Assembly: GCA_016873165.1 (NCBI GenBank)
Contig: VGXV01000034.1
Span: 1 to 33,741, forward strand
DNA: 33,741 nt
From: Planctomycetota bacterium
GTDB taxonomy: Bacteria > Planctomycetota > Brocadiia > Brocadiales > Brocadiaceae
Direction: 5' to 3'
This document shows, piece by piece, positions 8,274 through 33,741 of the stretch. Both the position numbers and the translations under genes were made by a program. The notes beneath the pieces were generated by a model. The model made no database searches and was not told the DNA's origin. It was given only the letters and a program-made list of their open reading frames with translations. Position 1 is the stretch's first letter; each line of letters begins with the position of its first letter.

Positions 8274-8641
8274 TTCTGAAAAATATCAAAAATTAACAGT
8301 TAAATCAAGGACTATGTAAACCTTAAGATGTGGCCGGCAAAAAGATTATTTGATTTGAACCGGTTAAAGATCACGTAAATGCCATTACAAATAAAGTCTG
8401 ATACATTCCTGTTTTTTGATACATCATTTTTTCTCTGTCCATTTCTACCTTGCTATAAACGCATCGGGATGTTATTTTTAAGAAAATGAATACACTGAAT
8501 TACGTAAAAATGTAACACCATATATTTTTGTCCTTCCATGTAAACCTGTCGCCTTTGCGATCCTGTAAAATGTGATAGTAATGGTTGTGAACATTTTTTT
8601 ATTAATCTAATTTACTCTTTATATTATGAAAGGAGAAAGGA
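8274..8641. other. Divergent intergenic region mqnE / FKBP gene
   Basis: 368 AT-rich bases separate two divergent genes, so promoters for both should be here. I see a short direct repeat TGATACAT (around 8400-8425) but no convincing -35/-10 pair and no reading frame worth calling. Confidence 0.3.
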
Positions 8642-31047: not shown

Positions 31048-31761
31048 CTATTTTCTCAAGATCAGCACACCTGCTGTCAATTTTTTGTTTGCATCAAAAA
31101 TCTTTGTTAATCGGGCATTTACTTTTAACGATGCCTGGCCGCCGGAGAGGGTTATCTGGAAATCCGTATTTTTTTCCTGTGCGTTTGCAAGCACATCAAT
31201 GGCTGTTGACAATTCCATTTGTGAAAGATAGGCAAGGATATCCTTTTGTTCTGTTTCAGGGATGTGCAGTAGTTCTCTGGCAGTCTGATTAATATTTTTA
31301 ATTTCCCACTGCCCGTTAACAACAACAACACCTTCTCCCACATTTGACAATATTGCATCGAGTATTCCGTTTTCATCCGTCCTGACCGCAGCGGGTCTTG
31401 TGCGAAGCAAAGATTTTACTCTGGCAAGGAGTTCTGTTTTATTGAAAGGCTTGCTGATAAAATCATCCGCCCCGGCCTCTATTCCTTTAATACGGTCATC
31501 CATTTCATGCAAGGCGGTAATCATTACTATAGGGAGGTTTTTTGTCGCTTCCTCCGCTCGTAATTTTGTGCAAACTTCATATCCGGTAATCTTCGGCATC
31601 ATTACGTCAAGCAGGATTAAATCCGGGTTCTCCGTTTTTGCCTTATGTAAAGCCTCTTCACCATCATATGCCTCGATGACGTCATATTTGGCAGAGGTTA
31701 AAATAACTCTTAATAATTTGACATTTTGTGTAATGTCATCAGCAACCAGTATTTTTGCCAT
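31048..31761 (-). CDS. Response regulator with a PAS domain
   Basis: This 237-residue cytoplasmic protein has an N-terminal receiver domain with acidic pocket Asp8/Asp9, phospho-acceptor Asp52 (LILLDVMMP), Thr82 (MITA) and Lys104 (SKPF). A C-terminal PAS domain begins at about residue 130 (GILDAILSNVGEGVVVVNGQWEIKNINQTA). It has no DNA-binding, GGDEF or kinase output, so it probably signals through protein contacts or as a sensor relay. No histidine kinase is adjacent; it is an orphan here. The upstream region to about 31950 is very AT-rich. Confidence 0.87.
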   Translation of the reverse strand: MAKILVADDITQNVKLLRVILTSAKYDVIEAYDGEEALHKAKTENPDLILLDVMMPKITGYEVCTKLRAEEATKNLPIVMITALHEMDDRIKGIEAGADDFISKPFNKTELLARVKSLLRTRPAAVRTDENGILDAILSNVGEGVVVVNGQWEIKNINQTARELLHIPETEQKDILAYLSQMELSTAIDVLANAQEKNTDFQITLSGGQASLKVNARLTKIFDANKKLTAGVLILRK

Positions 31762-31896
31762 AGAATATCCGCGTTTCTCTTTCCGTTAAAAATATAATGA
31801 GTTATAGAATTCTAAATCTATTTGTATATTTTGTATAATACAATTAGTTAATATATTTTATAGTACATTTATTGCATAATAAAAAAGAATATTTTA

Positions 31897-31932
31897 GTAA
31901 CACTTTAGTTTTTTGAAAAACTAAAGTGTTAC
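31897..31932. terminator. 16-bp perfect hairpin, possible bidirectional terminator
   Basis: GTAACACTTTAGTTTT (31897-31912) and its exact complement (31917-31932) flank TTGA. The minus-strand exit has TAAAATATTCTTTTTT, and the plus-strand exit has ATATTTTAAAG. It lies between the relE remnant and the divergent response-regulator leader. A small palindromic insertion is the alternative. Confidence 0.45.
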
Positions 31933-31949
31933 ATATTTTAAAGTTTATT

Positions 31950-32114
31950 TTATAATGGTTTGGAATAGTATTGCCAGTATCCCTCAAATTTAATTATTGG
32001 CAGGTTGTCTTTGCGATGTCTACTGCGGTATAGCGTAATAATTTTTTGTTTTTCGTCAATGGCATAAATTATCCTAAAATCTCCTACACACAATCTGTAA
32101 TTGTTTTTCTTCCT
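31950..32114 (-). pseudogene. RelE/ParE-type toxin C-terminal remnant
   Basis: A minus-strand frame ending at TAA 31950-31952 encodes YRLCVGDFRIIYAIDEKQKI, then ITLYRSRHRKDN. This is the C-terminal beta-sheet and catalytic-arginine region of RelE/ParE toxins. Upstream a stop (TAA) interrupts the frame after a few codons, and the first half of the domain is missing. Its 5' end abuts and overlaps the tail of a restriction-enzyme remnant in another frame, so two decayed genes are fused here. Confidence 0.65.
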
Positions 32115-32577
32115 TTAACAACCTTAATTTCTTCTTCTGTTAATCCATACAGTTTATAAACTATTTCATTTATCACCTCATCTGTTGTCTGAATTCTGGT
32201 TTTTAATGGTTCGAGGACTGTCATGCTATGAACGAATTGCCTTTCCAGCATTCCTGCTTTTTTCAGTCTGATGGGTCTATGGATAGTTTGTTTTTGTTCT
32301 TTCTGAGGACTTCGAGGAGTTGATTGAAGTCGTGTTCATGATATTCCTTTATGGTGGTTTTATTTGCAAGATTATCAATCTCTGCACCGATTTCATGTTC
32401 AAACCACTTCAGAAAACACGTGATTTCCTCGATTTCCATTTTGTTCATTTCGATAATCTGCTTGACTAAATAGTCAAACAGATTCTTCACGGTGTTCCTA
32501 AGTGAAGCCTCTAAAACTGTCAGTAGGAAATATAGCCAAACAAATCTGATTTTCGAACATTCATATTTATATTGCAC
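32084..32577 (-). pseudogene. Type IIG restriction-modification enzyme C-terminal remnant
   Basis: Two frames together encode the C-terminus typical of Eco57I-like restriction-methyltransferases. The first frame (32577 to the stop at 32263) carries NLFDYLVKQIIEMNKMEIEE, FLKWFEHEIG and LLEVLRKNKNKLSIDPSD. After a one-base frame change at about 32264 the second frame gives LKKAGMLERQFVHSMTVLEP, IQTTDEVINEIVYKLYG and LTEEEIKVVKG, ending at TAG 32084-32086. The methylase and nuclease domains are absent. Homology seems to begin near 32499; the residues upstream are unlike the family. Confidence 0.6.
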
Positions 32578-32590
32578 AAGTCTTTTGATG

Positions 32591-32641
32591 CTTCGACTCC
32601 GCTCAGATGACTCGAACTGTCCACCCTGAGCGGAGTCGAAG
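32591..32641. repeat. Inverted repeat with 16-bp perfect arms
   Basis: CTTCGACTCCGCTCAG (32591-32606) and its exact complement (32626-32641) enclose 19 bases. The arm sequence is of a kind I have seen dispersed in several bacterial genomes. It lies just upstream of the restriction-enzyme remnant. The 235 bases after it (32642-32876) hold no gene I can support. Confidence 0.8.
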
Positions 32642-32876
32642 GGTTGAGTTTCTCAGTGAAATGAGGAACCTTTCGTATTCGGCAGAATATACGCTAATTG
32701 TTTTATTTACAAAAAAATCGGGAATGCTCCCGTTCCGCCTGACCCATTATACATTATAATTATATAGTAGCAACATGATAGGGCATAGCATGCCTGCCGA
32801 ATGAAGCCGCCATGTCCTGACGGTCACAAAGGGGGATGAAATAATCCACAAACATTACAGAGTTAAAATGTTGGTT

Positions 32877-33113
32877 TTATTCTTCTTTAACAACTTTGTC
32901 GCACAATTCTTTTCGCTTTGTCCTTAATTCTTTCAGCAACTTGCGTCCGGCAGCAGTGATTTTGTAATACTTGCGCACCGTCCTGCATGTGCAGGTTAAA
33001 AGACCAGCCTTTCACATTTTTTCCGGTGTCGGATACAGCATGCCTGGTCTGAGTTTATACCCATGCCTTCCGAGTTCCTTTATCAAACCGACAACCGACA
33101 CCAAAGACCTCCT
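32877..33113 (-). pseudogene. PadR-family regulator remnant with in-frame stop
   Basis: The minus-strand frame reads GLIKELGRHGYKLRPGMLYP, then TPEKM, a TGA stop at 33012-33014, then KAGLLTCTCRTVRKYYKITA and AGRKLLKELRTKRKEL to TAA 32877-32879. GLIxELxxHGYxLxPGxLYP and the RKYYxITxAGR wing are diagnostic for PadR winged helices. The TGA falls in the middle of the conserved LHxMExxGLL region, and the N-terminal helix is missing beyond a TAG at 33114-33116. Confidence 0.7.
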
Positions 33114-33148
33114 CTATTACAAATGGTTAGCGTGGCCCGATCCTCTTG

Positions 33149-33255
33149 TTATACTAAGTTGCATTCATACATAAACTAATATATAATATCCTCAGGTAAA
33201 TTTATTATCGGAGGATATTATATATTAGTTTATGTATGAATGCAACTTAGTATAA
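33149..33255. repeat. Perfect palindromic element with 45-bp arms
   Basis: The left arm 33149-33193 (begins TTATACTAAGTTGCATTC) is exactly complementary to the right arm 33211-33255 (ends GCAACTTAGTATAA), with a 17-base centre. The 107-bp unit looks like a MITE. The TA bases at each tip would suit a Tc1/IS630-type TA target, though this is inference. It ends 4 bases before the next small ORF. Confidence 0.9.
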
Positions 33256-33259
33256 ATCA

Positions 33260-33424
33260 ATGCATAAATCCATTAAGTATTTGATGTGGTGTCTGATATT
33301 CTTAACATTAATCGCAGTCTTAGTTCCTACTCATTTTTTCAACAACTCGAAATCTGAACTCGTTACAAATACAGAGCCTGCTGAGAGTCAGACACCGGCT
33401 AAAACAAATACTCAGCCCAAATAA
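33260..33424 (+). CDS. Small membrane protein, probable integron cassette ORF (54 aa)
   Basis: A 54-residue protein starts MHKSIKYLMWCLIFLTLIAV, giving one transmembrane helix or uncleaved signal, and ends in a polar Thr/Pro/Asn tail. It stops 8 bases before the R'' box of the attC-like site, which is where cassette ORFs normally end. No ribosome site is visible, and the palindromic element is immediately upstream. Function unknown. Confidence 0.5.
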   Translation: MHKSIKYLMWCLIFLTLIAVLVPTHFFNNSKSELVTNTEPAESQTPAKTNTQPK

Positions 33425-33432
33425 AAAATGAA

Positions 33433-33521
33433 ACATAACAACGGCATCGAGAGGGACGCGGGAATAGCTGTCGGAATTTTTCATATTTAGATTCCCGCGC
33501 CCCTCATGCTTGGCGTTAGGC
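33433..33521 (+). other. Integron attC-like recombination site
   Basis: The 89-base site has R'' = ACATAAC (33433-33439, one mismatch to RYYYAAC) and R' = GTTAGGC (33515-33521, full match to GTTRRRY). Between them the arms fold as one imperfect hairpin. GCAT-GAG-GGG-CGCGGGAAT on the left (33444-33465) pairs with the complement at 33491-33509, leaving three single extra bases, C33448, A33452 and A33456, on the left arm only. Such one-sided extrahelical bases are a hallmark of attC sites. The left arm text TAACAA...GAGAGGGAC is also close to VCR-type attC sequences. Expected cleavage lies after G33515. No integrase gene is in the window. Confidence 0.7.
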
Positions 33522-33530
33522 CATAACGAT

Positions 33531-33623
33531 ATGACAATCGACGATTTGCTTAAAATAACTCAAATCGCATTTTATATCACTGCTGGAACAGTTGCCATAT
33601 TGACATACATAAAACAGGGCTAA
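33531..33623 (+). CDS. Small membrane peptide, possible second cassette ORF (30 aa)
   Basis: A 30-codon frame encodes MTIDDLLKITQIAFYITAGT followed by VAILTYIKQG, one transmembrane helix. It starts 9 bases after the R' box, a typical position for a cassette ORF. No ribosome site is seen. Function unknown. Confidence 0.4.
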   Translation: MTIDDLLKITQIAFYITAGTVAILTYIKQG

Positions 33624-33671
33624 GTCAAATATAAATGTAAGCAAGGATAAACAAGAAAGATAAAGAAAAAA

Positions 33672-33700
33672 CTGACTTTTTCGGAATAAATTTTTTATAC
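33672..33700 (+). promoter_or_regulatory. Promoter near the right edge
   Basis: CTGACT (33672-33677), a 17-base spacer and TATACT (33695-33700). Transcription would start at about 33707, immediately before the ATG at 33708. Confidence 0.45.
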
Positions 33701-33707
33701 TGTTATT

Positions 33708-33741
33708 ATGAGCGATAAAGAGAGACGAAAAAGCACAGAAC
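33708..33741 (+). CDS. Start of an unidentified protein (partial)
   Basis: ATG at 33708 opens a frame MSDKERRKSTE that runs off the window. The -10 box ends 7 bases earlier and there is no ribosome site, so it would be read from a leaderless or nearly leaderless mRNA. It is too short to identify. Confidence 0.35.
   Translation, partial: MSDKERRKSTE

Follow-up and report, generated by a model that had tools for sequence, protein, structure and literature searches.

The window analysed here is the entire contig C34 (33,741 bp), one of the 191 contigs that make up a draft genome of 4.05 Mb, and the sequence stops at the window's last base. The completeness of the genome is estimated at 100%. 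It is placed in the anammox family Brocadiaceae, in which its relatives include Candidatus Brocadia sp. MAG_8 and B. sapporoensis, and this placement bears out the guess of an anammox-like genome in the initial annotation. Towards the right end of the window, a response-regulator gene (31048-31761) lies within a signalling gene cluster that is intact in two same-genus genomes, and the homology to this cluster ends near 31805. The following stretch (31806-32750) is degenerate and repeat-rich with no clear gene, and copies of it can be found in many genomes of the family (e.g., 32112-32480, 75-87% identical). A PadR-family regulator pseudogene on the minus strand (32877-33115), which is 5′ truncated and contains one internal stop, and a 107-bp palindromic element (33149-33255) with perfect arms of 45 bp (33149-33193 and 33211-33255) come next. 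Near-identical copies of the palindrome are present on C28, C37, and C25. It looks like a MITE, as far as its sequence tells, because one of its arms also serves as the upstream end of a C15 ORF that starts with MRTPKAISDQQ.

The PadR pseudogene is the left neighbour of a cassette ORF of 54 aa with a hydrophobic N-terminus (33260-33424, plus strand), which ends, as first described, 8 bases before a long stem-loop at 33433-33521. A 30-aa ORF (33531-33623) starts 9 bases after the stem-loop. Its position is as initially reported, but it is not a whole cassette gene. It is a truncated gene, because from 33614 onward the sequence is a repeat shared with C14, C15, and C27, and the stop at 33623 falls inside this repeat; the 5′ part of the next cassette gene is therefore about 28 codons long (33531-33613, plus strand). 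The repeat end (33614-33741, plus strand) begins with CAGGGCTAAGTC and the contig ends within it. On each of C14, C15, and C27, the same 127-132 bp adjoin unrelated sequence. The repeat is probably an insertion sequence; no transposase is attached to its copy in genome G015. At the end of C27 (L090, last 180 bases), the same repeat is apparently inserted within an attC-like sequence (ATCTAACAAG...CTGACCGCTAT). Neither the 28-aa nor the 54-aa peptide has a match in Pfam, and a search for their relatives in 294 genomes of the phylum gave, beyond the window, one weak match in the window's own genome. The 54-aa ORF resembles a 136-aa ORF on C37 in the C-terminal part of the latter (26 aa, 50%, E = 0.0016), which is a short and weak match, and the C37 ORF also has an attC site behind it. 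The stem-loop sits in a rearranged and element-rich stretch.

The sequence, the fold, and the covariance models all delimit the same attC-type site on the plus strand (33433-33521). It begins with an R″ box, ACATAAC (33433-33439), and ends with an R′ box, GTTAGGC (33515-33521), in which the crossover is predicted between G33515 and T33516. Between the boxes lie an unpaired central spacer of 4 and 5 bases (AACG, 33440-33443; TTGGC, 33510-33514), the left or L″ arm of the stem (33444-33465), and the right or L′ arm (33491-33509), the two arms being separated by a variable terminal structure (33466-33490). The R′ box fits GTTRRRY perfectly and the R″ box departs from RYYYAAC once, with 2 of the 7 R-box pairs mismatched. 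An A at the third R″ position recurs among the other attC sites of this analysis, for instance in the VIM-1 cassette (GCATAAC). When C33448, A33452, and A33456 are left out, the two arms are exact reverse complements and pair perfectly along 19 bp. These extrahelical bases are confined to the left arm and read G, T, and T on the bottom strand, with a spacing of 4 and 4 and none on the right arm. The same spacing is shown by G16, T20, and T24 of the Vibrio VCR2/1 attC site (PMC2727003). Extrahelical bases are defined as the partnerless bases of the R″-L″ arm, and an attC stem carries two to three of them in that arm together with an unpaired central spacer (PMC2727003); both are present here. 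The R″ and R′ boxes, the long stem, and the three left-arm-only extrahelical bases noticed in the initial annotation can all be read in the sequence.

The stem and R boxes are far beyond chance expectation. In a 4.05-Mb Markov-1 control sequence of window composition, the best stem of the same design beside GTTRRRY and AAC boxes has 10 bp, as compared with 19 bp in the window site. By a looser custom attC score, the window site reaches 20.8 and no site in a 337-kb control scores 18 or higher. Folded as single-stranded DNA, the site has z-scores of −4.2 (top strand) and −4.4 (bottom strand), and no shuffled sequence equalled it.

We then examined the site with two custom covariance models, R1 and R2, in place of the attC_4 model of IntegronFinder; the window site and its close homologues were left out of both training sets. 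R1 was trained on 11 attC sites of ~60 bases, five from plasmid class 1 integrons and six from arrays of relatives. Its seed was kept to sites of this length, as a mixed-length attC alignment (MAFFT) misplaced the right arm. The training set of R2 consisted of 38 R1 matches. With default filters and 222 kb searched, R1 matched exactly 33433-33521 on the plus strand (29.0 bits, E = 0.001), and R2 matched the site with 41.4 bits (E = 1.6e-7 in the window and 1.9e-5 in the whole genome), all of these E-values being rough since the models were calibrated briefly. The R1 score is higher than those of the known attC sites of dfrA27 (27.1 bits), aacA4 (24.7 bits), and dfrA1 (20.8 bits). The window site was not listed by R1 with the filters off and was missed in the R1 search of the whole genome, both of which are taken to be due to length and prefilter limits. 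No second R2 match is found in the window up to an E-value of 5. A significant match of the kind that had been proposed as a check of the attC assignment was thus obtained, at the same coordinates.

Homologs of the site body were found in three relatives with 77-87% identity, much of the terminal loop included, and behind unrelated genes. In the MAG_8 contig (L085) and B. sapporoensis (L086) the gene before the site encodes a PIN/VapC toxin, whereas in G042 (L087) it is an unrelated 201-aa ORF, and the ORF downstream of the latter site is weakly similar to HNH endonucleases. The VapC cassettes of L085 and L086 share 95% identity over 837 bp up to ...GCCGTTA, and beyond the G of GTT the identity falls to 32-43%. 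This is the same place where integron integrases exchange strands; the cassette boundary at the R′ crossover is seen in these two homologous sites and not in the window copy itself. The initial annotation had associated the same stem after unrelated genes with a terminator. The stem does occur in this way, yet it counts as attC behaviour because the two Brocadia copies lose homology at the R′ crossover.

These comparisons bear on a rival reading, in which the 54-aa ORF is simply followed by an intrinsic terminator or some other common RNA hairpin. A stem that is strong, rich in GC, and placed 8 bases past a stop codon would fit such a reading. However, the stem is followed by the R′ box GTTAGGC and no T-run, Rfam has no match at the site, the asymmetric single-base bulges are conserved, and it is at the crossover point, not the stem, that homology between genomes stops. 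Two Nitrospirae MAGs (L162, 6671-6759; L181, 1612-3589) contain the same attC-type stem followed directly by GTGTGTGCCGGACATGGCACAG, which in L181 runs on into a group II intron carrying a reverse transcriptase; the junction sequence is identical in L162. Group IIC introns use attC sites or terminators. The intron directly behind the L181 stem is consistent with attC but not decisive, and may also be claimed for a terminator. With the T-run absent and R′ in its place, we rejected the terminator reading as very improbable; the preference for attC in the initial annotation is upheld by the models, the R boxes, the bulges, and the homology ending at the R′ crossover. It is even harder to credit that the site is a dispersed palindromic repeat of the REP or MITE type unrelated to integrons. 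The neighbourhood is repeat-rich and a palindrome lies ~180 bp off, but the site itself is single-copy in its own genome and shares its R and L boxes with the attC sites of known resistance cassettes, and this candidate was rejected on both grounds. We therefore consider it highly probable (roughly 94%) that 33433-33521 is an integron attC site in canonical orientation, which closes the 54-aa cassette and precedes a second cassette cut by the repeat.

Published integron biology suggests how such a site would function. The bottom strand, when single-stranded, would fold, an integron integrase would bind the R and L boxes via the extrahelical G and T bases, and a cut between G33515 and T33516 would allow cassette exchange. 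Integrons of planctomycetes are already known: a Kuenenia intI has been placed in a phylogenetic tree (PMC3607928) and Planctomycetes attC sites have been used for a taxon model (PMC8352920). The general picture of integrons is therefore unchanged, and the window site is a new member of an element type that has been described before. It is also a case in which a true attC site was recognised from raw sequence alone, through its asymmetric bulges.

Further attC sites are present in the same genome: R2 has 33 matches there at E ≤ 0.1, some of which form clusters on C37 and C8. The integron integrase model TIGR02249 has no match above cut-off in the genome and none on the window contig. The best intI-like copy, on C28, has ~100 aa deleted, and fragments are found on C4, C8, and C96. 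In the array on C8 (L014, 654-8526), the minus strand carries at least four attC sites and the plus strand an integrase fragment (8374-8526); it is a decayed integron of the usual layout. It had been noted that no integrase was in view at the site; this holds, as every intI-like match is on another contig and those to intI itself are broken copies. The expectation of more attC sites or an intI to the right is answered in part, by other attC sites and intI remnants elsewhere in the genome; to the right of the site itself, 220 bp of contig remain.

It is accordingly improbable, though less so than the two readings above, that a complete and active integron has its edge at this site and its intI beyond the contig end. 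The contig break 220 bp to the right and the intact intI genes of both same-genus genomes would suit it. Against it, no intI above cut-off is present in a genome estimated to be complete, all copies being fragments or deleted; moreover, the usual layout puts intI to the left of plus-strand cassettes, where chromosomal sequence and the PadR pseudogene are found. No intact intI lies beside an attI site and an array, no attC or attI was found at the left edge of the 54-aa cassette, and we rejected a complete integron for want of an intact intI. A CALIN, the other reading initially offered along with an integron edge, is defined by at least two attC sites (PMC12444791). The window resembles such elements, as in Xanthomonas, in having an attC site and cassettes without a neighbouring intI (PMC12444791), and that part of the reading stands; but a CALIN cannot be shown at the window because just one attC site is visible before the contig ends.

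Since no intact intI is visible in its own genome, the attC site most likely remains from an earlier array that has been scattered and interrupted by insertion elements, and its recombination would at best depend on an integrase acting in trans. The two same-genus genomes, G030 and G031, have integrons with a full-length intI and attC sites found by the same R2 model, whereas broken intI copies alone remain in the window's genome. From this draft assembly, it is likely that insertion elements broke up the integron platform after its integrase had been lost. The genome adds an anammox case of an apparently dead integron platform with many persisting attC sites. On contig C63 of G030 (L092, 3189-3512 and 6288-7083), an intact PadR gene, toxin-antitoxin-like cassettes, and a deleted intI are found, and the 3′ fragment of a second PadR copy is fused directly behind the intI remnant. 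By this parallel, one may guess that the PadR pseudogene in the window marks a deleted intI, of which no trace is left in the window.

We further scanned 84,980 genomes with a pattern of the L boxes alone, leaving the R boxes free, and obtained 56 stretches. With the window included, GTTR is found just 3′ of the site in 52 of 62 cases and AAC just 5′ in 55 of 62. The majority have a 22-base middle part of the aacA4 type, and ~10 share the long terminal loop seen in the window site. The attC site of the aacA4 (aac(6′)-Ib) cassette of class 1 integrons (L108, 5122-5193) has the same L″/L′ core, CATCGAG.GGGACG / CGCCCCTCATG, as the window site, and the two are alike in their R boxes and left-arm extra bases. 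They differ in their spacers and in the distance between the L cores (39 bases in the window site and 22 in the aacA4 site), and the window cassette carries a hypothetical ORF. It is possible, though rather doubtful, that the window site represents a subfamily of attC sites with a terminal loop (GGGAATAGCYGTC...) conserved across Brocadia, Nitrospirae, Dehalococcoidales, and an archaeal MAG. If true, integron cassettes would have been exchanged recently among phyla sharing anoxic or groundwater habitats, and an anammox species would keep ~30 attC sites usable by a foreign integrase alone. A nearly identical terminal loop was found in five loci (L131, 1197-1293; L163, 1357-1453; L145; L146; and L154) on contigs labelled Euryarchaeota, Dehalococcoidales, and Nitrospirae, which suggests either cassette exchange between phyla or binning errors.
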